Of a DNA stretch of 64,000 nucleotides, positions 2,077-41,013 are shown piece by piece. Below the pieces are notes generated by a model. The model had not been told where the DNA came from. It searched no databases and was given only the letters and a program-made list of their open reading frames with translations. This DNA is from Williamsia soli (GTDB taxonomy: Bacteria; Actinomycetota; Actinomycetes; Mycobacteriales; Mycobacteriaceae). The stretch spans positions 62,001 to 126,000 of the forward strand of contig NZ_JAFRDR010000014.1 of NCBI RefSeq assembly GCF_017377795.1, read 5' to 3'. The translations under genes and the position numbers were made by a program. How positions within the stretch are numbered: position 1 is the first letter of the stretch; the number at the start of each line of letters is the position of its first letter.

Positions 2077-5000
2077 CGACGGTGCGCAGTGCGGTCGCCC
2101 GTGTCGCCGCTTCAGCTGGTGATGTTGTCGCGGTGCACTCTTCGGCCAGCGAGCTGACCTACCGCGAACTTGACGAGCAGGCCAGCCGGGTGACCGGATA
2201 CCTCAGGTCGCGCGGCGTGGGGCATGGCGATCGCGTGGTGGTACGCATGGCTCGGGGCGTGGACCTGTTCCCTGTGCTGCTTGGCGTCCTGGGTGCGGGC
2301 GCCGCGTTCGTACCGATTGAGTCGACATCGACAGTTGAACGGGCCGCTGGGATAGTGCGCAAGTGCGACGCCGCCCTCGTGGTGACTGAGGCGGCGCTCT
2401 TGAGTGACGCGATCCCGAACGAGGCCGTGGTCACTTTGGCCGATATGGTCGGGCACGCGCCGACGCCCGCCGTGCCGGACTCAGACCGCCCAGCGTACGT
2501 AATCTTCACATCTGGCACGACGGGCGAGCCTAAGGGCGTCGTTATAGGAATGACCGCTCTGCATAGGTATCTCGAGTGGGCACGCTCCGAGTACCGGATG
2601 GACGAGGGCAGTGGCGCCCCGCTTTTCTCCTCGATTGCTTTCGACGCCACCCTTACGACGCTGTTCGGTCCACTGTTGGCGGGGGCGACAATTGTCGTCA
2701 TTGGCGACGACCCGATGTTTGAGCTTGCGGAGACCCTTCGGCGGCGCCCTGACTTCTCGTTCGTTAAGGCGACACCGCACCATGTCCGTCTCCTGACTGA
2801 GATGCTCGAGGGCGAATCGCTTGTGGCCGCAATGCGTTATCTCGTCGTCGGCGGGGACGAACTTGACACCGCGACCGTGATGCGATGGATGGCCATCTGC
2901 CCGGTCCCAGTCGTCAACGAGTACGGCCCGACCGAGACGGTCGTGGGCTGCGCCGCCTTCACCGTCTTGCCGGGCGAGCTTTCGGCGCTCGGCGCGACCG
3001 TGCCAATCGGGCGCGCGATCGCTGGAGCGCAGATCCATGTCCTAGACGAGGGGGGCCACAGCTCTGCCACAGACGAGGTGGGCGAGCTTTTCATTGGGGG
3101 TCCATCGGCCGACAACGCTTACTTCGCCCAGCCCGGCATGACTGCGGCGCGCTTCGTGCCGGACCCGTTCAGCGACCGCGGGACCCGGATGTATCGCAGC
3201 GGTGACTTAGCCTCGGTACGCCCCGACGGAATTGTCGAATACCACGGCCGCGCCGATCGCCAGATCAAAGTGCGCGGCTATCGCGTCGAACTCGGCGAGA
3301 TTGAGGCTGCGGTCCGCGCCGCGTCCGGAGTCGTCGATGCTACGGCGTTCGCCGAGCGCAACAACGGCGAGGTAACTACCACCGTCGTGTACACGGGCGA
3401 TGCGGATCCGGGTGCCATCCGCCGCGACCTAACCGCTCGCGTTCCGGCGTGGGTGGTTCCGCACCGCATCCTTCCATCCGATGTACTGCCTACGACCGCG
3501 AATGCCAAGGCAGATGTGGCCGCTCTCGTTGCGTCGATGGCGCCGGTATCCGAACCCGGGAATGAGCCCGACGCCCTCACTGTCGCGCTCGTCGCCGAGT
3601 TCGCCGCGGTGCTGCCGGCCGGGGCTATCGGCTCGGCTTCGGACTTCTACGCCTCGGGTGGGGACTCGATGAGCAGCATCCGGCTCGTCGCGCGCCTACG
3701 GCGCCAAGGCCACGCAGTTACCCTCGCGGATGTACCGGCACATCCGACACCTCAGGCGTTCGCCGCGCTGATCGCCGGTCGCGCGTCCGCCCCGGAGGCC
3801 CTGCCCGCGACCAAGGTCGGACAAGAGATTGCGCTGACCCCCGCGCAGCTCGACTTCTTCTCACTCGAGCTGCCCGACCCCGATCACTGGAATCAGATCA
3901 AGGTGATAGCCGCACCGGCGGGAATCGAAGTGGGCCGGTTAAATGATTCACTCCGCACGATCGTAACCCGGTACGACGTCCTCCAATACCGGTTCCGGGA
4001 CGGGCGGCAGTTTTATACTGGCGGCAATCCCGCGGTGGAACTGCGCGAAGTCGACATTATCGATCGGGCAGCGCTCGAGGAGGCTATCCGCGAGGCCAAC
4101 ATGGGGCTTGGTATCGAGGCCGGCCCGTTGCTCCGCGCAGTCGTCACCCGGACGCCGAACGGCCCCGATCACCTTGTGCTCGTCGCGCACCACCTCATCA
4201 TCGACGAGGTCTCATGGTACGTCCTGCTCGACGACCTGATCGCTGCCTACCGCGACGGCACCGGCTCCGTCGCCGCGGCACCAGCGGGGTTTGCGCAATG
4301 GCGCACCGACCTCGCTCGCTTTGCAGATCGGCCGGAAGTGCAGACTCGGCGGTCGTTCTGGGACGGGGTGCTAGCGTCACCCGCCGGCACTCTGCCGTCG
4401 GATCACGAGGTCGACGACTACCGCCACGAGCATTACTTCCGCGACGCGCTCGACTGCGAATCTACCGCGGACCTGCGGGACGCGGCGACCGCGGCGAAAG
4501 TCGGCGTCCACGAGGTGCTACTCGCGGCGCTCGTCGACGCGGTGAGCGTGACATTTGGCATCGAGCCACCCCGGGTCGATGTCGAGAGCCACGGCCGCAT
4601 AAAAGTCGAGGGCGGCGTGGATCCCAGTCGGACTATTGGATGGTGCACGGCGGTGTTCCCGGTAGTGCTCACGGGTGAGACGGTGGTCGACTTGATCGGC
4701 TCGGCCCACTCGGCGCTCGGCGGACAGCCATGGGACGGGGCGGAGTTCGGGTTGCTGCGGCTTGGCGAGATCGCTCCGTCACGTTCGGCCGAGGTGCTGT
4801 TCAATTACATGGGTGGACGCGACCGCAAGCTCGACGACGCGATCGGCTGGGCTCTCACTGAAGCGCCTGCGGGGGTCCAGTCCCCGCCTGCTGGGCGCCG
4901 CCCGTACGCCCTTGAGTTTCAGTCCCGAATCCTCGACGGCGAGCTCGGCTGGGAGCTGCGGGGCGGCTCACGTCATTCCTCATCGATCGTGCGAGCGCTC

Positions 5001-5147
5001 TCCGCTCGCATCCGCGAAAGCCTGGCGACCGCAATCGCCGAGCTGGCCGACGACTTAACCATCCGTTTCGCGGACAGCGGGCTGAGCGCTTCCGAGCTGT
5101 CAGCGGTGATGGCCCAGCTGTCCGGGCCTGACTGCGGTACCGAATGA
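2073..5147 (+). CDS. Non-ribosomal peptide synthetase, A-T-E
   Basis: 1024 residues with no N-terminal condensation domain, so it looks like a loading module. The adenylation domain (about 15-490) shows FTSGTTGEPKG near 145, NEYGPTE near 282, YRSGDL near 374 and NAKAD near 477, so it has all core motifs and the A10 Lys. The carrier domain has SGGDS with Ser 532. The third domain (about 585-1000) is an epimerization domain: HHLIIDEVSW near 706, SRTIGWCT and FNYMGG. Reading the pocket positions by eye against GrsA gives D-A-T-K-V-G-E-V, close to the asparagine signature as I remember it. A D-configured, possibly beta-hydroxylated Asn-type residue is the inference. It overlaps both neighbours by ATGA. 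Confidence 0.93.
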   Translation: MTTVRSAVARVAASAGDVVAVHSSASELTYRELDEQASRVTGYLRSRGVGHGDRVVVRMARGVDLFPVLLGVLGAGAAFVPIESTSTVERAAGIVRKCDAALVVTEAALLSDAIPNEAVVTLADMVGHAPTPAVPDSDRPAYVIFTSGTTGEPKGVVIGMTALHRYLEWARSEYRMDEGSGAPLFSSIAFDATLTTLFGPLLAGATIVVIGDDPMFELAETLRRRPDFSFVKATPHHVRLLTEMLEGESLVAAMRYLVVGGDELDTATVMRWMAICPVPVVNEYGPTETVVGCAAFTVLPGELSALGATVPIGRAIAGAQIHVLDEGGHSSATDEVGELFIGGPSADNAYFAQPGMTAARFVPDPFSDRGTRMYRSGDLASVRPDGIVEYHGRADRQIKVRGYRVELGEIEAAVRAASGVVDATAFAERNNGEVTTTVVYTGDADPGAIRRDLTARVPAWVVPHRILPSDVLPTTANAKADVAALVASMAPVSEPGNEPDALTVALVAEFAAVLPAGAIGSASDFYASGGDSMSSIRLVARLRRQGHAVTLADVPAHPTPQAFAALIAGRASAPEALPATKVGQEIALTPAQLDFFSLELPDPDHWNQIKVIAAPAGIEVGRLNDSLRTIVTRYDVLQYRFRDGRQFYTGGNPAVELREVDIIDRAALEEAIREANMGLGIEAGPLLRAVVTRTPNGPDHLVLVAHHLIIDEVSWYVLLDDLIAAYRDGTGSVAAAPAGFAQWRTDLARFADRPEVQTRRSFWDGVLASPAGTLPSDHEVDDYRHEHYFRDALDCESTADLRDAATAAKVGVHEVLLAALVDAVSVTFGIEPPRVDVESHGRIKVEGGVDPSRTIGWCTAVFPVVLTGETVVDLIGSAHSALGGQPWDGAEFGLLRLGEIAPSRSAEVLFNYMGGRDRKLDDAIGWALTEAPAGVQSPPAGRRPYALEFQSRILDGELGWELRGGSRHSSSIVRALSARIRESLATAIAELADDLTIRFADSGLSASELSAVMAQLSGPDCGTE

Positions 5148-7687
5148 CCGATCACGTCGCCGACATTTTCCCGCTGACTCCGGCACAGGCGGGCATGCTG
5201 GTCAGCACACTGCGTGAGGCAGAGCCCGGCCTTTACGTCGTGCAGATGCGGTTCGCGCTCTCGGGCCAGGTCGATGTCGCGCGACTGACCGCGGCATGGG
5301 ATGCGCTGGTCACCCGACACGAGATGCTGAGGACGGCAATCATCTGGGACACGACCTCGAGCCCGGTCAACGTGATTTTGACGGACGCGGCGATGCCGGT
5401 CGAGCATGTCGATTTAACACACCTACTGGCGGATCAGCAATTGGCCGCGGTCACCAGGTTTCTCACCCGAGATCGTCGGCGCGGGTTCGAGCTGCAGCGG
5501 GCTCCTCTCTCGCGCGTTACTCTCCTCGACCTCGGGGACGGCGAACAAGAGATGGTGTGGACCCATCACCACCTTATCCTCGATGGCTGGTCTACTGCGC
5601 ATGTAATGGAGGAGCTCTGGCAGCTCTATGTCGGCGGCAGCCTGCCAAATCGGCCGCCAGGCTTCCGCGATTTCGCTGTACGAATTGCGAACGCATCACA
5701 GCGACGGCGCATAGACGCTGATGCCCATTGGGACCACGTCATCTCTGGAGGCGGCGCGCGAATCGACATCGACAATCCGCGGAGCGATCGGCTGGACGAC
5801 CCGTGGACCCAGTGCGTCCTGCCCATCGAGGCGGATCGCCTCTATCTTTGGGATGCTGCGGCACAGCAACACCACACGACCCGTTCGACCTTGGTTCACG
5901 CAGCCTGGGCGATGACATTGCGCGCAGCTGGTCTTGGTCCGGACGAGGTGACGTTCGGCACCGTCGTCGATAGCCGTGGACCGGATGGAGCCGACGTAGT
6001 GGGCCTGTGTGTTGCGTCGACGCCGATGCGGATCGATTTCTCCGACGTGCCTATCGTGCAATGGCTGCGGCAGATCTCGATCGAACGGGCGACCAGTCAA
6101 GAGCTGGCCGGGAACCTCGCGGATCACCGGCGCTGGAGCGTGGACGGCTCCGAGGCGCCATTCCGCTACATCCTTGCTGTGGAGGCATACGCGCATGCCG
6201 GGTTGAGTAACCCGGACGTGGGTGACGAGCTGGCGGTGCGTTACCTCGGGGTGAACGAGTCTACCGAGTTCGCCCTTACGGCAGGACTGCCTGCAGGGGA
6301 TCCTTGCCTCAAACTGACGATCGACACGCGGCGGATCGGGGTAAGCGATGCGGCGGCCTTACTAGACCGTTGGGCCAAGTTCCTCGATGCTCTTGCCACC
6401 GCGCCCACGGCCGGAACCGTCACGAAGGTGACGGCGACAGGACCAGCATTCGTGTGGCACACGCTACCTGAGCGGATCCGCGCGCTGGCCCTCGAGCACC
6501 CCGAGCGGCCGGCGTTTAACGACGGCGCGGGGTTCCTGATGTTAGGTGCACTCGTGCAAGAAGCCGAGGAACTGGCCGCACACCTTTGTGCGCGGGGCGT
6601 CCGCGCGGGCGACCGGGTCGGCATCCTGTCAGACGGCACCGCGGGCGTGCCGATCGCGACGCTCGCGATCCTTGCCGTCGGCGGCGTGGTCGTCCTGCTC
6701 GACCCGAGGCACCCCGCACCGTACCGCAGGGCGGTGATCGCGGAGGCAGGGCTAAGCCGCATTCTGACCCCTCATCCTGACGTCCGGCCCGACTGGGAGG
6801 GGATTGACGTTGACGCTGTCTTCGGCGAGCGCGCCGTTCCACCCGAAGGGCACACGCCCGTCTGCTCGAGTCGTGCGGATACAGCATTCCTCGTCTATGA
6901 CGGCGGATCTGCTCTTCTTCCGCGGGCCGCACGCTACAACCACGCCGACGTCATAAGCGCGGCGGCTGAGTCCGCCGCCTTATTGGGCCTCACAGATGGC
7001 GACGACTGGGTGATCTCGCGGACTGGCAGAGGTGCCCTGTCGCCCTGGGAGATGTGGATCGCTCCGCTCACCGGAGGATGCACGGTCCTCGCGGCCGGTA
7101 CCGACGACGAGGACGGCGACCCAGATGATCGAGAGCGACTACCTCATGCGGGCGTCGCGATCGACGCGACCGATGTTGAGAGCGTGCTCGTCAGCCGCCC
7201 TGGCGTCACATCCTGCGTCGTGCGGCTTGACCGGATTGACCGGCTTGAGGCCGTCGTAACGGCTGCCGCCCCGTGCTCGGTGCGGGAGCTAAACCGTGCG
7301 CTCCGCTCGGCCCTGCCTGAACGGCTGGTGCCGAAAGTAGCGCTTGCACAGGATGGGGGCGCACCTGACGCGAACCGGCAGCTGCAGTGCGAGCAGGACA
7401 TCCGTCACTTGTGGTCGAAGGTTCTTGACGTGCGCGACGTGCCGCTCGACACTCCGTTCTTCGACCTGGGCGGGGATTCGCTGCTGCTTATCTCCGTCCT
7501 CAGTGGACTGCTTAACAAAGGCTGGACCGACGTCACCATGACTGACCTTTTCGCATACCCGACTATTCGATCGCTGAGCAAGCGGCTGTCCCGACCCGCC
7601 CCAGCTGCATTTAGCCCTGCAGCGCGGGAAACCACGAGACCCAGGCGCGACGCTGTCGCCGCCCGACGTGAACGGAGGAACCTGTGA
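5144..7687 (+). CDS. Non-ribosomal peptide synthetase, C-A*-T with degenerate adenylation domain
   Basis: 847 residues. The condensation domain (about 5-430) has an intact HHHLILDGWS near 141. The adenylation-like part (about 440-720) keeps the N-terminal fold (VRAGDRVGIL, AVGGVVVLLDPR) but the A3 phosphate loop is replaced by YDGGSALLPRA. The YGPTE, GELxxxG, YRTGD and GRxDxQxKxRG motifs are missing, and A10 reads GAPDANRQL without the catalytic Lys. The domain is about half the usual 500 residues. The carrier domain is intact (FFDLGGDSLL, Ser about 779). The carrier must therefore be loaded in trans, or the module passes its chain on without adding a residue. It ends in an Arg-rich tail and overlaps the PKS start (GTGA). 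Confidence 0.92.
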   Translation: MTDHVADIFPLTPAQAGMLVSTLREAEPGLYVVQMRFALSGQVDVARLTAAWDALVTRHEMLRTAIIWDTTSSPVNVILTDAAMPVEHVDLTHLLADQQLAAVTRFLTRDRRRGFELQRAPLSRVTLLDLGDGEQEMVWTHHHLILDGWSTAHVMEELWQLYVGGSLPNRPPGFRDFAVRIANASQRRRIDADAHWDHVISGGGARIDIDNPRSDRLDDPWTQCVLPIEADRLYLWDAAAQQHHTTRSTLVHAAWAMTLRAAGLGPDEVTFGTVVDSRGPDGADVVGLCVASTPMRIDFSDVPIVQWLRQISIERATSQELAGNLADHRRWSVDGSEAPFRYILAVEAYAHAGLSNPDVGDELAVRYLGVNESTEFALTAGLPAGDPCLKLTIDTRRIGVSDAAALLDRWAKFLDALATAPTAGTVTKVTATGPAFVWHTLPERIRALALEHPERPAFNDGAGFLMLGALVQEAEELAAHLCARGVRAGDRVGILSDGTAGVPIATLAILAVGGVVVLLDPRHPAPYRRAVIAEAGLSRILTPHPDVRPDWEGIDVDAVFGERAVPPEGHTPVCSSRADTAFLVYDGGSALLPRAARYNHADVISAAAESAALLGLTDGDDWVISRTGRGALSPWEMWIAPLTGGCTVLAAGTDDEDGDPDDRERLPHAGVAIDATDVESVLVSRPGVTSCVVRLDRIDRLEAVVTAAAPCSVRELNRALRSALPERLVPKVALAQDGGAPDANRQLQCEQDIRHLWSKVLDVRDVPLDTPFFDLGGDSLLLISVLSGLLNKGWTDVTMTDLFAYPTIRSLSKRLSRPAPAAFSPAARETTRPRRDAVAARRERRNL

Positions 7688-10629
7688 GCGACTTACCCCC
7701 CGACGACGCCATCGCCATTGTCGGCATGGCCGGGCGATTCGCGGCCGCCGAGAGCGTGCCCGAGTTCTGGCGCGCCATCCTCGACGGACGCGAGCTGATC
7801 ACCTCCTACACGCGCGACGAGCTGCTGACGCGAGGTGTGCCCGAGAGCATGGTCGATCATCCCGACTATGTACCCGCGCGCGGCGCAGTCTCTGACCCCC
7901 TCGGCTTCGACGCGCCGTTCTTTGGCTACAGTCCGCGCGAGGCCCAGCTAATGGACCCGCAGCAGCGCCTCATCCTCGAGACTGCATGGCACATCGCGGA
8001 GGATGCCGGCATTCGGCCCGACGAGATGCACGGCTCCGTCGCGGTGTTCGCCGCGACGGCGCCACCGACGTACATACGGTGGTTTCCGCCGCCCGCGGAA
8101 GTCGACCCACTCGAAGTACAGGTGGGAAACGATGTCGACTTCGCGGCGGCCCGCGTTTCCTACAAGCTCGGACTAGACGGGCCCAGCGTAGGGGTGTCCA
8201 CCGCCTGTGCGTCCGGACTCACCGCCGTGCACCTCGCCTGCCAAAGCCTGCTGAGCGGGGATTCAGACACTGCATTCGCGCTCGCCGCATCAATCCGCTT
8301 TCCCGCCGATCGCGGCCTGATCCGGGTGCCCGGTTCAATCTTGTCCGGGGACGGGCACTGCCGTCCGTTCGCCGCTGACGCCGAAGGAACCGTCGAGGCG
8401 GACGGCGCCGCGGGCGTGTTACTTCGTCGTCTCGAAGATGCTCTCGCCGACGGCGACCGCATCTACGCAACCATCCTCGGTTCGGCAATCGGCAACGATG
8501 GCAGCGGCCGGATCGGTTTCACTGCGCCCGGTGTGGAGGGGCAGCTGAAGATCATCGAGGCGGCGCTGCGCTACGCGCAGGTCGACCCTGCCCAGGTCGG
8601 TTACGTCGAGGCGCACGGCACGGGAACGCGCCTCGGCGATCCCGTCGAGACGCGCGCGCTCGCCGCGATCTACGGGGTGCCCAGCCGTGTGGAGCCAGCG
8701 CGGTTCGGGTCGCTCAAGTCGAACACCGGACACCTTAACCACGTTGCCGGGATCGCCGGGCTCATCAAGGTCGTGCTCAGCCTCGAGTCCGGCCAGATCG
8801 CACCCAGCCTTCATCTCGAATGCGGCGTCAACCCGGACCTTGACTTAGCCGACGGTCGCCTGCGGGCGCAGGACCGGCTCGAGCCCTGGCCTGCATCCTT
8901 CCCACGCCGCATTGCCGCCGTCAGCTCGTTCGGCATGGGCGGCAGCGGCGTTCACATGCTCGTGACCGCGCCATCAGCCGCCCCTGCCCCGGTCGTCGCG
9001 CCGCCCGACGCCCATCAGGTGCTGTTGCGGCTCTCTGCGCGCAGCCCCCAAGCCCTCGCGTCCTCGGTCACCGCGCTTAGGGACTGGTTCGATCAAAATC
9101 CGGACGCCGACCTGCGCGACGTCGGTTACACGTTGTACAAGGGGCGCACTCCGATGCTGTACCGCACGGCTGTACTCGCCGGAACCGTGGAGGGCGCATT
9201 GCGGGCACTGGCCACCGCAGACGTCACGCGTGCGCCCGTCGACATTGCCGGCCACACCGCGGTGATCTTTCCGGGCCAGGGCGCCGAGCACCCTGGAGCG
9301 GCCGCTCGCGCGTACGAGGAAGACGTAGGGTTCCGGCGTCACCTCGACGCGTGTCTCGACGCGCTCCCGACCGGTGAACGGGCAGAAGTTCGGTCCTACC
9401 TTCTCGACTCCGCCCATCCCAAGCTCGGGACCGACCTCGCGCAGCCTGCCCTGTTCGCGATGGAGTACGCGCGGGCGCGGAGTTGGCAGACCGCCGGCCT
9501 CGAATGGACCGCGATGTTCGGCCACAGCGTGGGCGAGTTCGCCGCCGCTTGCCTAGCCGGCGTCTTCTCGATGGAGGATGCGATGCGCGTGGTTGCAGCG
9601 CGTGGCCGTCTAATCTCGACTACCGGTCCAGGTGCAATGCTCGCGGTCCGCCTCGCTCCAAAGGAGCTGCGCAAGCGGTTGGCCGGCGTCGACGGCTGGG
9701 ATCTGGCCGCACACAACGCCGAAGACGAATCGGTGCTCTCGGGCGGTATCCACTCAATCGCGGCAGTCGATGCGAAGCTGCGGTCCTACGGGGTCGGCAC
9801 TCTTCCGGTCGAGGTCACCCACGCGTTCCATTCGCGCCTTGTCGACCCTGTGCTGGAGCAATACAGAGAAGTAATCGCCGGCGTTGCCCGAAACGCACCC
9901 TCGCATCCATACATTTCGTGCGTGACAGGCACGTGGACAACGGCCGAGCAGGCAACATCGGTGGACCACTGGGTTCAACAGGCGCGCGGTACCGTGCTGT
10001 TCGAGCCTGCAGTGCGCACCGCACTCGATGCCGGCACCTCCGTCTTCGTACAGCTCGGCCCAGGCCTGATGGCGGCGTCGAACCTGCGACGCTCCCGCGC
10101 CGCGGCCGTAGTGGTCTCGAGCGACGGGTATGCCACGCTGGAGAGTGTCGGCCACGCGTGGGCGCGCGGGGCGACGATCCAGTACCCGGCGGAGGGTCGT
10201 CGAATCGGACTTCCGGGTTACCCTTTTGAACATCGCGAATATTCTTTCGCCGCTGCAGTCGAGCCCGGTATCAAAGCTCAACCGGTGGTTGCGCCGGAGA
10301 CAATCCCGGGTGCGCAAGCGCCCACCTCATCTCGGGCCCGCCGTTATCCGCGTCCCCCGATGGCGACGCCGTATCGGCCTGCGGCCGATGCACTCGAGGC
10401 CCGGATCATTGAGTTCGTCGAACGCGAACTGAGCACCGATGGGATTGGCGCCGACGACGACTTCTTCGAGCTTGGCTGGGACTCGCTGCTGGTGGTGGGG
10501 CTGACGTCTCAGCTCTCAAGTGACCTCGGCATTAAAGTCGACGCGGACGCGGTTTACGATGCGCCTACCGCGGCACTTCTTGCGACGGAACTTGAGGGCC
10601 TTGGGGCCGAACGCAGAAGCGGTCGATGA
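7684..10629 (+). CDS. Type I modular polyketide synthase, KS-AT-ACP
   Basis: 981 residues, GTG start behind GGAGGAA. The ketosynthase (about 8-425) has STACASGL with Cys 175, EAHGTGTRLGDP and KSNTGHLNHVAG, a full Cys-His-His triad. The acyltransferase (about 530-830) has FPGQGAEHPG, the nucleophile motif GHSVGE near 615, and THAFH, the malonyl-CoA type signature. The acyl carrier protein has FFELGWDSLL near 934. There is no ketoreductase, dehydratase or thioesterase, so one malonate unit would be added without reduction, leaving a beta-keto group. It is the last gene of the operon, and no release enzyme follows. Release may be by a protein encoded left of the window or by spontaneous cyclisation. 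Confidence 0.94.
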   Translation: MSDLPPDDAIAIVGMAGRFAAAESVPEFWRAILDGRELITSYTRDELLTRGVPESMVDHPDYVPARGAVSDPLGFDAPFFGYSPREAQLMDPQQRLILETAWHIAEDAGIRPDEMHGSVAVFAATAPPTYIRWFPPPAEVDPLEVQVGNDVDFAAARVSYKLGLDGPSVGVSTACASGLTAVHLACQSLLSGDSDTAFALAASIRFPADRGLIRVPGSILSGDGHCRPFAADAEGTVEADGAAGVLLRRLEDALADGDRIYATILGSAIGNDGSGRIGFTAPGVEGQLKIIEAALRYAQVDPAQVGYVEAHGTGTRLGDPVETRALAAIYGVPSRVEPARFGSLKSNTGHLNHVAGIAGLIKVVLSLESGQIAPSLHLECGVNPDLDLADGRLRAQDRLEPWPASFPRRIAAVSSFGMGGSGVHMLVTAPSAAPAPVVAPPDAHQVLLRLSARSPQALASSVTALRDWFDQNPDADLRDVGYTLYKGRTPMLYRTAVLAGTVEGALRALATADVTRAPVDIAGHTAVIFPGQGAEHPGAAARAYEEDVGFRRHLDACLDALPTGERAEVRSYLLDSAHPKLGTDLAQPALFAMEYARARSWQTAGLEWTAMFGHSVGEFAAACLAGVFSMEDAMRVVAARGRLISTTGPGAMLAVRLAPKELRKRLAGVDGWDLAAHNAEDESVLSGGIHSIAAVDAKLRSYGVGTLPVEVTHAFHSRLVDPVLEQYREVIAGVARNAPSHPYISCVTGTWTTAEQATSVDHWVQQARGTVLFEPAVRTALDAGTSVFVQLGPGLMAASNLRRSRAAAVVVSSDGYATLESVGHAWARGATIQYPAEGRRIGLPGYPFEHREYSFAAAVEPGIKAQPVVAPETIPGAQAPTSSRARRYPRPPMATPYRPAADALEARIIEFVERELSTDGIGADDDFFELGWDSLLVVGLTSQLSSDLGIKVDADAVYDAPTAALLATELEGLGAERRSGR

Positions 10630-12180
10630 GTGAAGCGCAGATCGGACTATTGAGTTTGAATGCAACCACATCCGCGCGGATTGGCAGCCCCAGTCCGCGT
10701 CGTCGTTAAGCAAGACGCGGCATCCGCAGACATCGAGACCGCGTCCGGATTTGCGTTCGCGAAGGCGGTGGCGACCCAGGACGGGCGGCCCCACCGTGCG
10801 GTCACGCAGAACAACGCTCGAATTCTGCGTGCCGCCCCTTCTTCGGAGCTTAGCACCCCAAGATGGGCAATAATCTCACTGTTATAGCAGGTAGCTCGTA
10901 TGGTGTCCGCGCTAATTGGATTTAGCGCAGTAGTTGTCTCGAGTTCGCGTTGTGACTGTTCCAGATTCCTGACTTCTCAAAGGTCCCCTGAGACGACTTC
11001 AAAATGTCCGTATTTGAGCGACACGAACAATGGCTACTGCCAGGCAGCGTCCCCGACCGTTCGTGCCTAGCATCCAGGTGACCTGTGGAAGCCAGATGCC
11101 GTTAACCATGGTCGCAGTCATAGTGCGCAGACGCGTTCTCGAGCCCGCATCGCTAGCGTGTTTAACGGACTACGGCGAGCACAGATCTCCTGGTCGGGCG
11201 GCCCAGCTACAGGCCGCTTGGCCGTGGAGACGCCGGAACGCGACTATCGTTACCGGCCTCGGTTGCTGGCACTGACAATACGACTGTTGCGGTCGTGCAA
11301 AGGTTGCCTGGACAGCGGATTGCGCCGCGACGCCATCGCTTCGATGGGCACCGTGCGTTGCGTAGTCCAACGCGCGGTCTCCAAGCGCAGCTGACTCGCG
11401 TGCCGTGCGAAACCGTGCCCGACGGGCGGATCATTGACTGTCGGTGCCCGTGGCTTGGCAGTCGTGTTCCGCAGGCTCTTCGCGCGCAACCTCTACCCCG
11501 GGGCCATGGAGCCTTCGCTGTTCTTCCGGAGCGCCATTCCCCCGGTGCGGCATAGCCGTTCTTGGTTTCGTCACAGTACGGTTTGCTTGCCGCACCGTTT
11601 GAACCGATGGATCCGTGGGGGCGCGACCAAGGCGCTGACGGCGCATGCTCTCGAGCGAGTCTGTCAGCCAATCGTTTACGAGCCAGGCGTTAGCTTGTCG
11701 CGATCCAGCTTGGCGCGCAGGACCATCACCCGCGACCGAGTGCCAACACCCTTCGTGCCGCCTCGTATGGCACTTACGGCCCAACAGACCTTCGCGGCGG
11801 GACCTCGAAATTATTCCGCCCGGGCTCAATATCCGCGTCTGCACGCCTTCGGATACCGCGAGATCACATGCTTTGTTGGTTGTCCGTGTCCGAGCCGGTC
11901 CACATCGCCGAAAGTGGTCAGCCGACGGTCTTACTGGCCGATTGCGGCTCCGCACATCCACTTCGCCAGGCACGACCTCAGTCTCACTGAACACCCGAAA
12001 CACCGCCCCCAGAGCGCCGTAAATCAATGAAGCGCACCCACGCGCGCGGACTGAAGACCAGCCGGAAGATCCAAGAGCTCCCGATCGCTTCGCCCAACTG
12101 GCGACTTCGGTCGGCGGCAACCTCTACGCACGGACCGATCTGACCGCACTTTGCTTATTTGAGCTAGCCGCAGACTACCG
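10630..12180. other. Gap without recognisable genes
   Basis: About 1.5 kb after the PKS. Several open frames exist on both strands (for example 11434-12030 and the opposite 11431-12120), but their translations are Arg/Pro/Ser-rich with no known motif, and they lack convincing ribosome sites. I see no transposase remnant. It may be decayed sequence at the join between the biosynthetic cluster and the replication region. Confidence 0.5.
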
Positions 12181-14598: not shown

Positions 14599-16380
14599 TC
14601 ACGCCACAACGCGGTACCTTTCATGCAGTTCCACGTGGGCCAGTGCATCGGCATACGCCATTCGCCCACCAGGTCTGGTCGGAAAGCGGCCGTAGCGCAT
14701 CCGGGCCGGCACTGCGATCGGCAGCGATGTCACCTCCGGAGTCGTATCTGCAGCGCGCGGACCGCGCTTGCGCCGCTTCCCTCGCAACCTCCGCCAAGCC
14801 AGCTCTTGCTCCCACCACTCACGAACTAGACGCTCACGACGATGTCGGTGGACCCTATCCAGAATGATCCCGTCCACCCCAAGCACACGGGCGGCGTTCG
14901 TCCACGCCGGTCGCGCGCAGAGCATCCCGAGTCCCTGTAATCGCCTGAGCCAGCCCTTGACAGTCGCTAGACCGTATCCCGTGTCCCCGGCGATTTGGCC
15001 CGCGGTTGTACAGCCGTTCTCCCAGCTCAGGTGAATTAGCTCGGCGCACCCGCCGAGTCCGCCGCCCCAGACCCATACGTCGTGTTGCGCGTGGTTAAGG
15101 CGCGTTTGGAGGTGGTGAAGTAGGGGGCGTGATTCCACTTGTGTTGCAGCTGTATCTAGCGGCGGAGCGTTTAACCTCCAGGTCGCGGCCGACGTACCTG
15201 TGGCTCGATCAACACAGGTGATCCACCCCTCTCCTTCCAAGCGATGTAGGGCGCGTGAGGCCGTGGCGGCGTGGACATTCGCATTCTCTGCAAGGCGTCG
15301 GACGTCTATGTTGATCACCTCATTGTGAGCCGCCGTACAGATGCTAAGAAAGGCGGCGAGCACCCGCTGGGCGCTTGTGTAGCCAGGGCGCACCCAGTGG
15401 CCCGGATGCGCGAACACTGCTTGTGCCGCGCCGGCGATCAGATCAGTGACCGGGTCCTCAACCAGTTGATCAAGTGCGGCTCTCGGCCACGCTGTCCGCG
15501 CAGCCGTCGTTAGAGCTTTATGCCACTGGTTGATCGCGTGGGCTTCGCACCGTTGATGATCCTCGCGCATTCGCGTTAGCCCAGGTTGATCCAGTTGCCT
15601 CGCAACCTCTTTCCAGCACCAGCCGCTGGCCGCCATGCCAAGAATGATGGTCCATGCGACCGCGGAACGGTCTGCCGACGACGGCAACGGCGCCTGGAGG
15701 AGCTTCGTCGTGTGAGGCGACAGCGCTGCTCTGACTCGATTCAGTCGTTGATTAGACCCGGCGCCTATCAACTCGAGCTCCGTCCGTCCAGACGCTGCAG
15801 GGTGCGAGTCGTGTCGAGGTTGCGTCGGGAAGCGAGCGTGAAGCCAGTCTATGAGCTCTGGGGGAGCAGGTTCTCGGTCCATTGCCTGGAGAACACGATC
15901 GAGGTCAGTCCCGGTGAGCAGGGGAGTCGCGCAGCCGTTCATCCGATGAGGCGAACCCGGGATTCGGACGGCCCCTGACTGGGGGTTGCTCAGTGGAGTG
16001 ATGTCGAGCGTCGGTAGATGCGAACGAATCGCGCGCGCCACGCCTGCGACTAGCGGTGCTTCGACGCCCTGGTCGCAGAGCCGCACCCAGACGTGGACTC
16101 CGCCGGCCGGGCCCGATCGGACAACTAGGTGCGGTACGCCGAGCTCATCGAGCACCTTAGCCAGAATCGACCAGTCAACATCGACGGCATCGCTACCGTA
16201 GCGGCCGACATCGAAGTCGAATGCCAGCAAGCGATAGTTGCCGGCGCGATCAGACAGGTAGGAAGCTATCGGAAACTCGGGAAGACTCGTCGGCCACGGT
16301 GTCGACCGGTAGGAATGGGTGCGACCAGAATCAATCCGGGCAGTCTTTCTAGGCGACCAGCGCCGCCACCACGTCAGCAT
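14599..16380 (-). CDS. Primase-polymerase-like plasmid replication protein with C-terminal helix-turn-helix
   Basis: 593 residues. The N-terminal part resembles archaeo-eukaryotic primases found in plasmid Rep proteins. LLAFDFDVG offers a DxD metal-binding pair, VVRSGPAGGVHVWV is the S-x-H-type strand, and AVRIPGSPHR matches the later basic motif. The middle is a helical PriCT-like linker with Trp- and Arg-rich helices. The C-terminal third has winged-helix elements (VNIDVRRLAENANVHAATAS is close to one, then TTAGQIAGDTGYGLATVKGWL as another), and it ends in a basic tail. It is transcribed toward parAB. It probably primes or starts plasmid replication. The weak ribosome site makes the exact start uncertain. 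Confidence 0.65.
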   Translation of the reverse strand: MLTWWRRWSPRKTARIDSGRTHSYRSTPWPTSLPEFPIASYLSDRAGNYRLLAFDFDVGRYGSDAVDVDWSILAKVLDELGVPHLVVRSGPAGGVHVWVRLCDQGVEAPLVAGVARAIRSHLPTLDITPLSNPQSGAVRIPGSPHRMNGCATPLLTGTDLDRVLQAMDREPAPPELIDWLHARFPTQPRHDSHPAASGRTELELIGAGSNQRLNRVRAALSPHTTKLLQAPLPSSADRSAVAWTIILGMAASGWCWKEVARQLDQPGLTRMREDHQRCEAHAINQWHKALTTAARTAWPRAALDQLVEDPVTDLIAGAAQAVFAHPGHWVRPGYTSAQRVLAAFLSICTAAHNEVINIDVRRLAENANVHAATASRALHRLEGEGWITCVDRATGTSAATWRLNAPPLDTAATQVESRPLLHHLQTRLNHAQHDVWVWGGGLGGCAELIHLSWENGCTTAGQIAGDTGYGLATVKGWLRRLQGLGMLCARPAWTNAARVLGVDGIILDRVHRHRRERLVREWWEQELAWRRLRGKRRKRGPRAADTTPEVTSLPIAVPARMRYGRFPTRPGGRMAYADALAHVELHERYRVVA

Positions 16381-16473
16381 CGCTTCGCAATGGGGAGGCG
16401 ATGATCATGGTCAGCACGCGACACGCGGTGTTTAAGGATTGCGAGTGCATCCGCGCACGCAGTATCCTGAGAT

Positions 16474-16589
16474 CTGTCAGGCAAGACAGTCCCTCCGGGG
16501 ATGGCGTGAGTCAAAAGATCGAGCTGTTACTCGATCTGCCAAACGTCAGATCAAGAGCCCTCCGGCTGGTACCCGGGGGGTTCTTTTCG
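16474..16589 (+). ncRNA. Structured RNA 1, antisense to the leader of the primase-like rep gene
   Basis: Four hairpins follow one another. H1 is CTGTC-6 nt-GACAG (16474-16489). H2 is TCCC-TCCG-GGGA (16490-16501). H3 is AGATCGAG-6 nt-CTCGATCT (16516-16537). H4 is a 13-bp stem with U-rich tail (16553-16588). The two G-U pairs in H4 would become A-C mismatches on the other strand, so the + strand is the RNA. A paralogue with the same architecture lies at 18619-18740 beside the second rep gene. A countertranscript RNA that controls copy number is the best guess. The promoter is not identified. Confidence 0.6.
16553..16588 (+). terminator. Rho-independent terminator of structured RNA 1
   Basis: AAGAGCCCTCCGG pairs with CCGGGGGGTTCTT through 13 bp including two G-U pairs, with a 7-nt loop, and runs into TTTTCG. 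Confidence 0.65.
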
Positions 16590-16902
16590 TTTGGGACTCA
16601 CGCTGACTATTGAAGTGTGCGATCAGGCCCTGCTGGAGGACGTGGGTTCCCACCTCTCGTTGGTTGGTCTGGACCTCGTCGATGGCGGCGACGAGATGTC
16701 AGGATTGGCGTTGGGGAGCGCTGGTACTCACTCCCCAGATGTGAATCACATCGATGTAAGTATATTGGCGCACTTTTCGCGCCGATTTAATGACTCGACT
16801 ACAGGCGCGTCAGGTGGCCGAACGGACTGCTCGGCTCCGTTAGCGCAGCTCAAGCGGCATTCACCTACCGGGTTTTCGCGCGATTTATGAGACAATAAAG
16901 AG
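16590..16902. other. Intergenic stretch, no gene supported
   Basis: About 310 bases between structured RNA 1 and the zinc-finger-like gene. A TTG-started frame of 99 codons crosses it but has no ribosome site or motif. The promoter of the next gene should lie here, but I cannot place it. Confidence 0.4.
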
Positions 16903-17370
16903 GTGGAGCGCAAACCTGGAACTCGGCGTGTAGCCGAGGCAGTGCCATCCACACCTACGGTCGAAAACAGCTCCAAGCGCGCCGCAGTTGTTACCGCGTA
17001 CTGCGCACGGCCTCAGTGCCGCAAAGAGTTCCGCCGCACAATGGGTCGAGGGCGACCACGTCATTACTGTTCCGACGACTGCCGGCGCGAGGCCGAGAGC
17101 GATGCTCGGCGCCTGGCCGCCCAACTCGAACATCATCGATCTATGGCCGAAATGTTGACTCGCGACCTGGCGACATACGACATCGACACGCCGCCGGCGG
17201 CGGCGGCTCCGAGCTCTGGGGGGTCCCCGAACATCGAGCTAGCTACTGCGCGCGCGGAAGGCGTTCTCGTCGGGCTCGATGACGGCAGTCCTTTGGCGGC
17301 CGAGTTCCGAAAGCTCCTCGACGCGGTTCTAGGAAGCACCGCTGTGGACCAACAGCACAGGGCGTCTTGA
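16903..17370 (+). CDS. Small zinc-finger-like protein
   Basis: 155 residues. Four cysteines in the pattern C-x4-C-x16-C-x3-C (residues about 34, 39, 56 and 60; CARPQCRKEF then HYCSDDCRRE) suggest a treble-clef or FCS-type zinc site. It is followed by a basic, probably coiled helix (ESDARRLAAQLEHHRSMAEML) of which I quote only part: ARRLAAQLEHHRSM. The C-terminal half is Ala/Pro-rich, then a helix. Proteins of this shape occur on actinobacterial plasmids near rep genes, but I know no function. The GTG at 16903 directly follows AAAGAG, so a later GTG near 16942 may be the true start. Confidence 0.55.
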   Translation: MERKPGTRRVAEAVPSTPTVENSSKRAAVVTAYCARPQCRKEFRRTMGRGRPRHYCSDDCRREAESDARRLAAQLEHHRSMAEMLTRDLATYDIDTPPAAAAPSSGGSPNIELATARAEGVLVGLDDGSPLAAEFRKLLDAVLGSTAVDQQHRAS

Positions 17371-17447
17371 CTGCTCGCAGCGCACCGGACGGCTGAACTG
17401 CCAAACCGGAAGCTCTCACGGCTGCGGTCACGCTCTCGGCCAGGTAT

Positions 17448-18626
17448 TTACTGATGGTCGCATCGCTGAGCCGGCTCGCTATACGGCAACACCCAGCCGT
17501 GCTCGTCGCACTTTGCGCACGTTAAGCCAGTGTCTCGCCACGACTCGTATTCGAGCTGTCTTGCATCATCAGCGGCCGCGGGGCGGTCATCTAGATTCTC
17601 GTGACGGTTGAGGATCCCTGCCAGAAGAAGGATCGGCCGGCTCGGGCTACTAGCAATCCATCGTCCCAACCCAACCTCATCGACGAGTAGCTGGTTCAAG
17701 TCACGGTCTGTCCACCCGTGCGCGGCCGGACCGGCTAGAACGTGAGACCACGCTGATGGTGAGTATCTGTGCGCCCACCGAGGTGTCTGTGGGTTTCTAC
17801 GCCATTTCGCAGCTAGTAACAGGCCATGTCGATCAGGTGCCTTGTATCGCCGGCGGGTGGTGGCGGTTTTAGCGCGCGGAGCGCTCTGTTTTTTCTCTCC
17901 GGCTTTGCCGGTTGAGGTTAGTAAGTTGTTTGGTACAAGAGGTGTGCGCCCTAAAGGGCGCCCTTCGGGGTGGGGTGCCGCAACACTGTTACCTGCGGAC
18001 TTATCCACAACCTGCGGATTGTGAAGTGCGTACACCGAAGTCCACCCGCGGCCTTTGTCACCAACTCGGTGCGAGGCGAGGCGTTCGTCGAGGGTCCGTT
18101 GGCGGCCGCGCAGTATCTCGGTAGCCAAGCCCAGGAGTCGTAGAACCTGGCGCGCACGCTGGATGGTCCTCTCGGAGTACCCGGAGATCGCTGACACCCG
18201 ATTAATACTGGGCCGGCAGTTGCGCCCGGTTCGAAAGTCCGCATGCACTGCGTGAGCGGCCGCGATCTGCGTCAGCACACGCAGTGAAATTCCGTTCTTC
18301 GGGCCACCGAGGATGGGGACGATGTCGGCATAGCGGTGCGCGTACGCGATCGGAATGGCCCAGGTAAGCCAATGGTCGTCGCGATTCCAGCAGGCCACAC
18401 CCGCGTGCGCGAAGTCGCCAGGCTCCAGGGCGATCGCCTGGAGGCCGAAGCAACCCAGTTTGCGCAAGCGGGCCGAAGCGGTCGTAGACCGCCCACGCCT
18501 CGGACGTAGGGGCGTTGATCCGCAATATTCACGCAGGATTAGTGATGCGCCGGATTCTGTTTCCGACACGCGATGTGCAGGGATTGCAGCCGCACAAGGG
18601 TCGACTGTACCCTGGGCTCTGTCCAC
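17448..18626 (-). CDS. Putative plasmid replication initiator (second Rep-like gene)
   Basis: About 392 residues from GTG 18626; a TTG lies one codon earlier, and the start is unsure. The middle carries GYSERTIQRARQVLRLLGL, a helix-turn-helix like those of plasmid initiators, preceded by SLRVLTQIAAAH and an Arg-rich strand. A basic Lys/Arg linker (AKTATTRRRYKAP) follows, then a C-terminal helical domain with WTDRDLNQLL. The end has TCAKCDEHGWV and a further Cys (RCDHQ), suggesting a small metal site C-x2-C...C. Gene order (small DNA-binding gene, structured antisense RNA, then this gene) resembles copy-controlled rep operons. The assignment rests on that context and the HTH. Confidence 0.5.
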   Translation of the reverse strand: MDRAQGTVDPCAAAIPAHRVSETESGASLILREYCGSTPLRPRRGRSTTASARLRKLGCFGLQAIALEPGDFAHAGVACWNRDDHWLTWAIPIAYAHRYADIVPILGGPKNGISLRVLTQIAAAHAVHADFRTGRNCRPSINRVSAISGYSERTIQRARQVLRLLGLATEILRGRQRTLDERLASHRVGDKGRGWTSVYALHNPQVVDKSAGNSVAAPHPEGRPLGRTPLVPNNLLTSTGKAGEKKQSAPRAKTATTRRRYKAPDRHGLLLAAKWRRNPQTPRWAHRYSPSAWSHVLAGPAAHGWTDRDLNQLLVDEVGLGRWIASSPSRPILLLAGILNRHENLDDRPAAADDARQLEYESWRDTGLTCAKCDEHGWVLPYSEPAQRCDHQ

Positions 18627-18740
18627 CAAGACAGTCCCTTCGGGGAATGGGGCGGCCGCAAACCGTCCTGGCTCTCAGTTAGCGCTGAGAGTTCGAAACC
18701 TTACGAAACCCTCTGGCCCGCCAGCCAGGGGGTTTCGTGT
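18619..18740 (+). ncRNA. Structured RNA 2, antisense to the start of the second rep gene
   Basis: Same architecture as the RNA at 16474-16589. H1 is CTGTC-6 nt-GACAG (18619-18634), H2 is TCCC-TTCG-GGGA with a UUCG tetraloop (18635-18646), H3 is CTCTCAG-6 nt-CTGAGAG (18672-18691), and H4 is a 15-bp terminator (18703-18738). H1 and H2 are nearly identical between copies. H3 keeps its length and 6-nt loop but has entirely different, still complementary, arms. It lies between the small regulator and rep on the opposite strand, the position of a countertranscript RNA. Confidence 0.62.
18703..18740 (+). terminator. Terminator of structured RNA 2
   Basis: GAAACCCTCTGGC pairs with GCCAGGGGGTTTC, extended by AC/GT outside. 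One G-U pair favours the + strand as RNA. The tail GTGTATT is only partly U-rich. Confidence 0.5.
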
Positions 18741-18793
18741 ATTCCAGGAGTCGACGAAACCGCGTGTGAAGTTGTGATCGGACTTCCGGGGTC

Positions 18794-18997
18794 TTATCCC
18801 GTTAGCGGCAGCTGCTCCTCCTTCAAAAGATCCGGGCCAACTTTGAGTTCAGGTTGACCGTCCAAGTCGCAAAGCAGGTCAGCGACGTATCTGCTGACCG
18901 TGCTGTAGCCCGCGCGCGCCGCAAGGTCCGGAACGTCAATGGGGGCTGGAACGCGCACCATATGCTCTCTGCGCTTACCGAGATTCGGTTGAGCCAT
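18794..18997 (-). CDS. Small ribbon-helix-helix-like protein, candidate copy-number repressor
   Basis: 67 residues. ATG 18997 was chosen over a longer frame because AAAGGAAG lies 8 nt upstream. The order is a basic N-terminus, a short strand (EHMVRVPAPI), then two helices (VPDLAARAG and TVSRYVADLLCDLDG), as in CopG/Arc-like DNA-binding proteins. It precedes the second rep gene on the same strand, with a structured antisense RNA in between, and two direct repeats lie just upstream. This parallels CopG-rep-antisense RNA control known from pMV158-type plasmids. The functional call is an inference. Confidence 0.5.
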   Translation of the reverse strand: MAQPNLGKRREHMVRVPAPIDVPDLAARAGYSTVSRYVADLLCDLDGQPELKVGPDLLKEEQLPLTG

Positions 18998-19053
18998 CAG
19001 TGAACTTCCTTTCTCGCGGCCGTTCAATGCGAACCTGTCTATCGTGGCGCATG

Positions 19054-19100
19054 CCTGTAACAGGTACAGGTAGCGACACGCCTGAAACAGGTACAGATAA
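19054..19100. repeat. Two 19-bp direct repeats upstream of the small RHH-like gene
   Basis: CCTGTAACAGGTACAGGTA (19054) and CCTGAAACAGGTACAGATA (19081) are 27 nt apart start to start. Each holds an interrupted palindrome CCTGT-ACAGG or a variant. A further AACCTGTC lies at 19032. They could be operators for the RHH-like repressor, or iterons of a replication origin. Confidence 0.45.
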
Positions 19101-32771: not shown

Positions 32772-32992
32772 AGCAACCACCGATGGGCATAGGTAAGGCC
32801 CTGCACATCACAGCCACTCCGCTGCGCGTGGCCGCCGCGATCGCGACGGTTCTGCTCCTGATCGCGGGTTTTGCACCCCTGCCTGCGGCACTGGTGCTCG
32901 CGCTCTACGCAGCTGCACTGCTCGTCGCCGGGGCCGGTATGGCGGCGCAGCGCTACCGCAACAGCACTGACATCGAAGGGACGGACCAATGA
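32768..32992 (+). CDS. Small two-helix membrane protein
   Basis: 74 residues, overlapping both neighbours by ATGA. Two helices, VAAAIATVLLLIAGFAPLPA and LVLALYAAALLVAGAGMAAQ, in a tight hairpin, then a short charged tail. A protein of this size directly before SCO6880 resembles the PrgI-type component of Gram-positive type IV secretion systems. Confidence 0.6.
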   Translation: MKQPPMGIGKALHITATPLRVAAAIATVLLLIAGFAPLPAALVLALYAAALLVAGAGMAAQRYRNSTDIEGTDQ

Positions 32993-34482
32993 GCGAGGTA
33001 CACGCCAACAACGCGCTGATTCTGTACGGGCGGTGGGAGAAACCCCGAACCACCGGCCTCTACGGAATGACCTGGGGTGTCACCGTTTTCGCCGGGATCC
33101 TAGTGATTCTCAATATCGGGGTGTTCTGGTTTACCCGGTCGCTGCCTGCGACCGGCATCTTGCTGGCGGCCTCAGCGCTGCTGGTCGGTCCGATGGTCAT
33201 CACGATCGGTGGCCGCACAGGGTGGGAGTTGATGATTTTGCGTACCCAGTTCCAGTGGTCGAAATGGCGCGGGGAAACCCTCTTCCGAGGGGGAGCGTTC
33301 GGCGCAGTCCCCGGGATCGGGCGGATGCCTGGCATCGCCGGAGATACCCGCCTCTACGAATACGAACTCCGCAACGGCGAGCGGTTCGGTCTGGTGCACC
33401 TGAAAGCGAAAAACCACTTCGCGGTGTCCTTTTCGATCCAGTCACGCGGCCAAGAACGCGTCGACCAGCATCAGATCAACGACTGGGTGCTCGGATGGGG
33501 CGACTTTCTGGCCCAGCTCGGCAGCTCCCGGGGCGCGGTCGGGGCGTGCGTAGTCGTCGAATCAGTCCCCGACAACCGCACCCGCATCTCCGCTGAAGTC
33601 AAACGCATCACCCACCCGTCGGCGCCGGCCTACGCCAAGCAGGTGATGGCAGAAACAGCCATGCACTCCTCATCGGCCGTCGTACGCTCAGAGGTTCGTC
33701 TGACCCTGACCTTCGGGCGTCTGCGCGAGGCTGCGGGCAAAGAGGTCGCCGACCAGGCCGCCGAGATCGGGCGGCGAATGTCGACGCTGATGGCCGCGGC
33801 AGCACGGGCCGGCCTGGAGGCCACGCCGATGACGCCGGGGGAGTGGTGTGTGGCCCCGACCCGGGCCTACAACCCGCAGCTGACCGAGGACCTCGAAGCG
33901 ATCGCCGGGACCGGCAGCGAAGACCAGCTGCATTGGGAAGCCGCAGGTCCGGTTACTGCGGTCAACAAGTGGGATCACTGGGTGCACAACGGGTACCGGT
34001 CGATCACCTGGGAAATGGCGACCGCCCCCGCCGGACAGGTCCCGGCGCACGTGCTGCGCCCACTGCTGATTCCCCGGGCCGACGTGCGCCGCAAGCGGAT
34101 CGCCATCATCTACCGCGTCCACAACACCGCCGAAGCGGTCAAGCTCGTCGACTCCGACTACCGCGAGGCCCTCGCCGCCGAACAGTCGAAAAAGGGTGTG
34201 GTGTCCGCGGCCGCGACCGTACGGGTGGAAAACACCAACGCCGCCCGCCGCGAACAGGCCACCGGCGCTGGGCTGACCCGGTTCGGAATGCTCGTGACCG
34301 CCACCGTCGCACCCGATGAGGACCTGCCCTCGATCCGTGCCGAGATCGAAGGCATGGCCGACGGCGCCCACATCGGATTGCGCCGCTGCTACGGCTACCA
34401 GGACGCCGCCTTCGCTGGCGCTCTAGGGATCGGGATCATCCTGCCCGAATACGCCTCGACCAGCTCCAAAGTCTCCGCCTAG
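32989..34482 (+). CDS. SCO6880-family type IV secretion protein
   Basis: 497 residues. Two or three hydrophobic helices lie near the N-terminus (WGVTVFAGILVILNIGVFW, TGILLAASALLVGPMVIT). A soluble domain follows with FGLVHLKAKNHFAVSFSIQS and helices such as KEVADQAAEIGRRMSTLMAA. The C-terminus has LIPRADVRRKRIAIIYRVHN and MLVTATVAPDEDL. This layout fits the SCO6880 family of Streptomyces and relatives, which act together with the VirB4-like ATPase encoded next and correspond to its N-terminal half plus a membrane anchor. The gap to VirB4 is 38 nt. Confidence 0.8.
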   Translation: MSEVHANNALILYGRWEKPRTTGLYGMTWGVTVFAGILVILNIGVFWFTRSLPATGILLAASALLVGPMVITIGGRTGWELMILRTQFQWSKWRGETLFRGGAFGAVPGIGRMPGIAGDTRLYEYELRNGERFGLVHLKAKNHFAVSFSIQSRGQERVDQHQINDWVLGWGDFLAQLGSSRGAVGACVVVESVPDNRTRISAEVKRITHPSAPAYAKQVMAETAMHSSSAVVRSEVRLTLTFGRLREAAGKEVADQAAEIGRRMSTLMAAAARAGLEATPMTPGEWCVAPTRAYNPQLTEDLEAIAGTGSEDQLHWEAAGPVTAVNKWDHWVHNGYRSITWEMATAPAGQVPAHVLRPLLIPRADVRRKRIAIIYRVHNTAEAVKLVDSDYREALAAEQSKKGVVSAAATVRVENTNAARREQATGAGLTRFGMLVTATVAPDEDLPSIRAEIEGMADGAHIGLRRCYGYQDAAFAGALGIGIILPEYASTSSKVSA

Positions 34483-34520
34483 ACACCGTTGCTGTTTCTC
34501 GCGAGAAAGAAGGCTCACCA

Positions 34521-36745: not shown

Positions 36746-36749
36746 AACG

Positions 36750-38810: not shown

Positions 38811-38822
38811 AGGAGAACATTC

Positions 38823-39903: not shown

Positions 39904-39960
39904 CCCACCGACCGCAACAGAAGTCACCACACGCATAACCCGATGAAGGAGTGAACGACC

Positions 39961-40614: not shown

Positions 40615-40734
40615 CGCCCGCACCGCCAACCAACCCGCGACCTGTTTCGGCTGAAAGGAGCTGCCGCACAGCCAAATAAGGCGTTTCACGCCAATCCAGA
40701 TTTCGTTAGAACACAACACACAAGGAGACTCATC

Positions 40735-40977: not shown

Positions 40978-40985
40978 CGACCAGA

Positions 40986-41013
40986 GCCGCTGACACCCCT
41001 CGGTGTCAGCGGC
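40986..41013 (+). terminator. Strong hairpin after the small secreted protein
   Basis: GCCGCTGACACC pairs perfectly with GGTGTCAGCGGC around the loop CCTC. No U tract, as is common for actinobacterial terminators. Confidence 0.65.

Follow-up and report, generated by a model that had tools for sequence, protein, structure and literature searches.

Candidate antisense RNAs opposite the rep start codons of Mycobacteriales plasmids: two copies in Williamsia soli and their relatives

The countertranscribed RNAs of plasmid replication (rep) genes include the corynebacterial ctRNA_pGA1 (Rfam RF00236), which lies in the rep leader of an actinobacterial plasmid, and the Inc RNA of ColIb-P9, where repY-repZ exemplifies leader-peptide coupling. 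In this study, two paralogous elements were analysed in a 64,000-nucleotide (nt) stretch of Williamsia soli DNA (assembly GCF_017377795.1, contig NZ_JAFRDR010000014.1, positions 62,001 to 126,000; this whole stretch is hereafter the window), each made of hairpins H1, H2 and H3 and a terminator stem and lying opposite the start of a replication-initiator gene, rep1 or rep2. We consider it highly probable that each element is a gene for a cis-encoded antisense RNA, which would limit initiator synthesis by blocking translation initiation and would thereby hold the copy number.

In pMV158, a ribbon-helix-helix (RHH) gene is followed by an antisense RNA read backwards and then by rep, an order shared by copy 2 and by 47 of 70 elements of the family; its RNAII, which blocks rep translation, is a single 48-nt hairpin that has no U-turn loops and maps upstream of the start signals (PMC4485353, PMC5717011). 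In contrast, the RNAs predicted here measure 105–130 nt, fold into 3–5 hairpins, lie over the Shine-Dalgarno sequence and the start codon, begin inside the rep frame and carry YUNR H3 loops, and the Reps are not RepB-like by Pfam. Copy 1, and only copy 1, resembles R1/IncFII, with rep coupled by overlap to a leader frame whose start is covered by the antisense RNA, comparable to CopA and tap-repA (PMC5717011). However, the leader here shares its N-terminus with Rep2, no RHH relation of CopB was found in the tests made, and a repressor gene is missing upstream of copy 1. The proposed mechanism would work like that of pMV158 (CopG, RNAII) at copy 2 and like that of R1 (CopA over Tap) at copy 1, while the family is a member of neither system, as RNA structure, target site and Reps differ. 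The ColIb-P9 resemblance is likely convergent, the bacteria and the Reps being different.

Rep2 also has a homologue in the Rep of pVT2 (45% identity, covering 79% of the query), a plasmid that belongs with pJAZ38 and pCLP to the pMSC262 family and carries the element in a short form. Conserved sequences upstream of rep have been described in that family as an origin signature, with no antisense RNA mentioned (PMC4379921, PMC4378964). Rfam 15 gave zero matches in the window at the gathering threshold, and no relevant or countertranscript family for either copy at E-values (E) up to 10. In the literature on related mycobacterial plasmids and prophages, with subscription literature outside the search, neither an antisense RNA at rep nor the core sequence was found. 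The sequence family is thus new to Rfam and to the literature searched, as a preliminary description of this DNA had proposed, although an earlier description may exist.

Anatomy of the two elements and their target genes

Both elements show the order H1-H2-H3-terminator given in the preliminary description, and a covariance model delimits them as listed here with their target genes.

16474–16593, plus strand: predicted antisense RNA copy 1, about 115–120 nt; model match E 9.5e-23, itself a model seed
16474–16489, 16490–16501, 16516–16537 and 16553–16585, plus strand: H1, H2, H3 and terminator of copy 1
18619–18745, plus strand: predicted antisense RNA copy 2; model match E 6.9e-20, itself a model seed
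18619–18634, 18635–18646, 18650–18668, 18672–18691 and 18703–18738, plus strand: H1, H2, extra stem, H3 and terminator stem of copy 2
14599–16380, minus strand: rep1, 593 amino acids (aa), with a weak archaeo-eukaryotic primase (AEP)/prim-pol-like match and a winged helix (Pfam)
16374–16484, minus strand: rep1 leader open reading frame, 36 codons, TTG start in the H1 loop, Shine-Dalgarno GGAGGGA at 16490–16496
17448–18629, minus strand: rep2, 393 aa, HTH_36-like winged helix, TTG start in the H1 loop (18629–18627), Shine-Dalgarno GAAGGGA at 18635–18641

H1, H2, H3 and the terminator stem are common to both copies, and the extra stem occurs only in copy 2. Plus-strand folding was stronger than that of shuffled sequences (z −3.5 for copy 1 and −5.5 for copy 2), and an independent terminator scan detected the copy 1 terminator. 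H1 and H2 together form the complement of the rep translation start, with the start codon in the H1 loop and the Shine-Dalgarno sequence in H2, and on the opposite strand H2 reads UCCC-CGAA-GGGA, a hairpin carrying the Shine-Dalgarno sequence; H1 and H2 are conserved chiefly because they are complementary to these start signals. As in countertranscribed RNAs generally, the elements are encoded opposite the rep 5′ region with full complementarity to its mRNA. The earlier claim that each element is antisense to a rep leader therefore needs widening: its complement within the rep 5′ region extends beyond the leader to the ribosome-binding site and start codon. Similarly, the proposed head-to-head arrangement with a rep-like gene can be stated more precisely: the RNA would begin inside the rep frame (copy 2) or inside the rep-coupled leader frame (copy 1).

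At copy 1, the leader frame (MPDRSQDTACADALAILKHRVSRADHDHRLPIAKRC) ends in a TGA that overlaps the rep1 ATG as ATGCTGA. The leader peptide is similar to the first Rep2 residues (MVDRAQGTVDPCAAAIPAHRVS), sharing an N-terminal DRxQxT...HRVS, and the Rep2 N-terminus MxDR(S/A)QG(T/S) is kept in 20 relatives. Williamsia sp. 1135 has the same leader/rep layout, while in W. muralis the leader frame continues in frame into a rep of 607 aa. From the likeness to the Rep2 start and this in-frame fusion, it follows that the copy 1 leader is probably a frame-shifted, split Rep N-terminus retained through translational coupling. Comparable leaders were found at the loci L003, L051, L065, L070, L102 and L146. 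A sense promoter for the leader mRNA may be marked by one further feature, a speculative reading that the consensus scan missed:

16759–16764, minus strand: candidate sense −10 (TATACT) of the rep1 leader mRNA

With tblastn, homologues of rep1 were found in 253 plasmid records, an initiator family on many actinobacterial plasmids, and those of rep2 in 172. No rolling-circle Rep model matched the Reps, winged-helix and weak AEP/prim-pol models matching instead, and among the proteins scanned neither Pfam nor NCBIfam gave an IncFII-type RepA or CopB match. Foldseek with a structure model of Rep2 returned nothing useful.

Conservation and strand of the element across Mycobacteriales

Two sequence patterns were used to collect relatives. 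Pattern 1 (CTGTCN{4,8}GACAGTCCCTNCGGGGA, with the H1 loop free) matched 34 of 301 genomes of the bacterial family, and the reversed pattern, run as a control, matched 0; in a GTDB-wide contig collection it found 58 stretches, nearly all from Mycobacterium, Mycolicibacterium, Rhodococcus, Williamsia, Gordonia and Skermania. Pattern 2, with the −10 and H2 fixed and H1 free, matched 47 of the 301 genomes and left 72 elements after near-duplicate removal. The elements thus form a family of 70–80 non-identical copies in Mycobacteriales, mostly adjoining rep genes, with Williamsia sp. 1135 and W. muralis carrying the same pair as W. soli. A chance origin is excluded, because homologues exist.

The covariance model was built from 20 seed sequences, including both copies, and was used to align 77 matches. 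In this alignment 92.7% of the cells pair and 20 of 27 pairs changed on both sides, that is, the homologues with compensatory changes that the preliminary description had asked for do exist. The covariation score was 0.433 vs. 0.145 for shuffled alignments and 0.112 for the best slid version, figures that are tilted toward the structure by the kinship of the sequences and by an alignment fitted to it; this bias is a minor worry, because the gap to both controls is large and the H1 result below is independent. H2 was invariant, as expected for a Shine-Dalgarno hairpin.

The model also matched one element from another family of the order (L150; GTG in the loop, E 5e-9), the plasmids pWB1, pGKT3, pG135 and pMYCCH.01, R. 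erythropolis D310-1 and Dietzia pDK2035-53, and, only tentatively, two loci lacking the H2 core (L154 and L155). In a class-level sample of 198 genomes the single further match (L160) was false, being a terminator behind an unrelated gene, and it was rejected. By eye, Arthrobacter pA58H3 and a Citricoccus plasmid look like divergent relatives of the same layout: on the opposite strand a −10 (TATAGT, TATGAT) lies a short way into the rep frame, and upstream of rep there are a strong terminator and a hairpin containing GTCGCCAAACTTTCGAC or a similar sequence; the model gave them no support. No phage record was found by tblastn with Rep2. The only IMG/VR match (L123; IMGVR_UViG_2802429055_000007, 10560–10900) carries a MobF relaxase, an RHH gene, the antisense element and rep, and by its gene content this sequence, filed as viral, looks like a plasmid. 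Elements were also present on contigs labelled Kitasatospora arboriphila NRRL B-24581 (NZ_JNYV01000012, 17 and 15), an assembly that is probably mislabelled. The element, RHH gene and rep start of pWB1 are near-identical to those in the L015 genome, a similarity pointing to recent transfer.

In the set with an unconstrained loop, a start codon (ATG, GTG or TTG) lay in the H1 loop 5–8 nt past GGGA in 64 of 64 elements. Fifty-eight of these starts open a long frame on the opposite strand; the other 6 open leaders of 36–76 codons, which the long rep frame overlaps or follows. When H1 was left unconstrained, the start codon was kept in 71 of 72 elements (59 TTG, 11 GTG and 1 ATG), the exception being L123, which appears to have CTG at that place. 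Around it the H1 stem is swapped completely between groups and still pairs, as CTGTC/GACAG, TACC/GGTA, CACTC/GAGTG, CAGAC/GTCTG, TGAC/GTCA or TGCC/GGCA. Because the stem sequences change around a constant start codon, it is the start codon that holds the loop constant, and the need to pair that constrains the stem. The rep start annotated in GenBank for pRErm46 of R. equi is exactly the H1-loop TTG, and in pVT2 (element at 721–930) the annotated Rep start at 921 lies 49 codons past the conserved TTG at 774.

Upstream of H1, each copy has a candidate promoter within the opposite coding frame:

16439–16468, plus strand: putative antisense promoter copy 1, −35 TTGCGA (16439–16444), 18-nt spacer, −10 TATCCT (16463–16468), inside the leader frame of the opposite strand
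18584–18613, plus strand: putative antisense promoter copy 2, −35 TTGCAG (18584–18589), 18-nt spacer, −10 TACCCT (18608–18613), inside rep2 codons

When the 64 elements were aligned, a −10 of TAcCsT was found at −11 to −6 upstream of H1, with T, A and T each in 62, and a −35 (TTG) with T in 59 and G in 49, at a spacing of 17–18 nt and within the first ~16 rep codons. The second base of the −10 coincides with the third base of a codon, and 63 of 65 such codons end in T (GGT 55, GAT 7 and GCT 1), although GGT makes up only 425 of 2084 Gly codons (20%) elsewhere in the same rep genes. Under the −35 triplet, 25 different pairs of amino acids are encoded. Nucleotides rather than amino acids are therefore conserved, given the GGT excess and the varied residues under the −35. 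In terminator stems, chosen symmetrically, the plus strand has 90 G-U vs. 11 A-C pairs; the corresponding H3 counts were set aside for strand assignment, as the stem finder had paired loop bases. An own promoter and terminator, as expected of countertranscribed RNAs, are thus indicated by conservation and by the G-U bias. Together, promoter conservation, G-U bias and terminator point to the plus strand, the one originally proposed, as the RNA, with a predicted length of ~105–130 nt.

The same data bear on the alternative that the element is only a structured initiation region of rep mRNA, an autonomous or host-responsive translational switch with no antisense RNA, which we regard as unlikely. 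It would account for the start codon and Shine-Dalgarno sequence in H1 and H2, and H1 covariation around a constant start codon is expected from any mRNA structure. However, a sigma-70-like promoter on the opposite strand kept at synonymous positions, across varied amino acids, and a distal stem that has the 90:11 ratio and looks like a terminator of the plus strand argue against it.

Proposed mode of action and its alternatives

In the antisense mechanism that we propose as the most economical one, RNA polymerase would start on the plus strand from the promoter within the first ~16 target codons, and the ~105–130-nt product, complementary to the start codon, Shine-Dalgarno sequence and 5′ leader, would end at a terminator of its own. 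First contact would be made by the H3 loop, which usually has YUNR on one strand and would kiss the complementary loop of rep mRNA, and pairing would then extend into H2 and H1, covering the Shine-Dalgarno sequence and start codon so that no ribosome could start. At copy 2, rep2 would be blocked directly; at copy 1, the block would fall on the 36-codon leader frame, whose translation would be required for the rep1 start at the overlapping ATG. The RHH protein encoded upstream would probably repress the rep transcript and buffer fluctuations. A rise in plasmid copies would raise the antisense RNA and lower Rep, and the copy number would be held.

The role given to H3 draws on its pattern of variation. 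The preliminary description had noted that the H3 arms of the two copies differ and are still complementary; across the family the arms are likewise free to vary with pairing kept, while the loops are short and alike, most often CGCCAA (9), TTGGCG (6), CTGGTAA (6) or TTGGCC (5). In antisense systems that work by loop-loop contact, either strand may have YUNR in its recognition loop (PMC4485353). Here 62 of 77 elements had YUNR in the H3 loop of the antisense or of the sense strand, vs. 24.9 with the loop letters shuffled, and H3 is likely the recognition hairpin. The loop motif of ColIb-P9 Inc RNA, UUGGCG, recurs in H3 loops as TTGGCG or CGCCAA, a resemblance offered as a lead only.

Alternatively, a plus-strand RNA could attenuate rep transcription in the manner of RNAIII of pIP501, a mode that an antisense RNA overlapping the rep leader would fit as well. 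We think this quite improbable, as the antisense covers the Shine-Dalgarno sequence and start codon themselves and a consensus scan found no terminator-like site on the rep strand in either region. Least credible is an initiator or primer RNA of the plasmid origin, of the sort proposed for mycobacterial prophages of the non-RepA kind, that is antisense only incidentally. Some mycobacteriophages do need a noncoding RNA close to parABS in order to replicate (PMC7157519), but nearly all relatives here have a Rep gene that begins at the element, with the RNA placed on its ribosome-binding site, and the Rep2 search returned no phage records.

The anatomy, conservation, covariation, strand bias and gene order described above are direct observations. 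Several points weigh against the translational-block mechanism. Transcription, kissing, repression and the copy-number effect are all deduced from sequence, and inhibition of translation from the position of the element. The 3′ T tract is modest (3.7 T per 8 nt), and the consensus scan gave no promoter at either copy and a terminator at copy 1 only. The short form in pVT2 has H1, H2 and the terminator without H3, and H3 kissing therefore cannot be universal. Finally, no RHH gene is present at copy 1, and none was found at 23 other elements, one of them with only 96 nt of sequence.

The RHH gene, a possible control cassette and the plasmid setting

Two features lie upstream of rep2:

18794–19027, minus strand: small RHH (CopG/Arc-like) gene, probable transcriptional co-repressor
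19050–19099, no strand assigned: pair of direct repeats that include the near-palindromes CCTGTAACAGG and CCTGAAACAGG and lie upstream of the RHH gene; candidate operator

The RHH-like gene reported earlier upstream of the second element is borne out, and relatives on the rep strand, encoding 67–130 aa and located 79–188 nt before H2, accompany 47 of 70 elements, with every larger Rep group represented. The parallel drawn with CopG/antisense control accordingly fits copy 2 and most of the family, and fails at copy 1. The RHH assignment rests on the protein sequence: Pfam RHH_1 (the copG family) was matched by 4 of 21 members (best E 9.4e-5) and others matched RHH_5, RHH_10 or Arc, PDB profile matches were weak and included Arc, NikR, MazE7 and Mnt, and a single-chain structure model showed two helices, as expected, with no structural match in Foldseek. 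The repeats at 19050–19099 hold CCTGtAACAGG-type palindromes and are a plausible operator.

When the first 50 residues were removed, the Reps fell into two large groups (42 and 24 proteins), between which no similarity was detected, one smaller group of 3 and two singletons, and the control region is common to them all. This may mean either that the region was passed from one initiator to another or that initiators of great age drifted apart but retained it. We lean slightly toward a transferable cassette, consisting of the RHH gene, the antisense RNA and a common rep start with its start codon in a hairpin loop and the antisense promoter in codons ~4–16, that became linked to two or more unrelated types of initiator and was disseminated among plasmids of Mycobacteriales.

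The window itself is plasmid-like DNA. Conjugation-like genes at 32989–48885 (ATPase, TraG/VirD4-like, lytic transglycosylase-like and relaxase-like) suggest a self-transmissible plasmid. Large nonribosomal peptide synthetase/polyketide synthase-like genes at 2073–10629 lie just upstream of a ParA-like gene and the replication region, and a natural-product cluster may ride on the plasmid.

Copy-number and incompatibility control is little described for the large plasmids of Mycobacterium, Rhodococcus, Gordonia and Williamsia, for which one candidate mechanism and a sequence model are offered here; the family includes M. avium pVT2 and a plasmid of medical interest in Rhodococcus equi, pRErm46, whose name marks it as an erm46 plasmid. 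The conserved rep start, often TTG, is prone to mis-annotation, as the 49-codon delay in pVT2 illustrates, and the family corrects such starts. For vector builders, the element would mark the stretch governing copy number and compatibility. Judged from their position over the rep ribosome-binding sites and start codons, these antisense RNAs very probably act as a copy-number brake for a large group of actinobacterial plasmids, and if the cassette reading is true, the hairpin sequences would set incompatibility groups and plasmid compatibility would be predictable from sequence.

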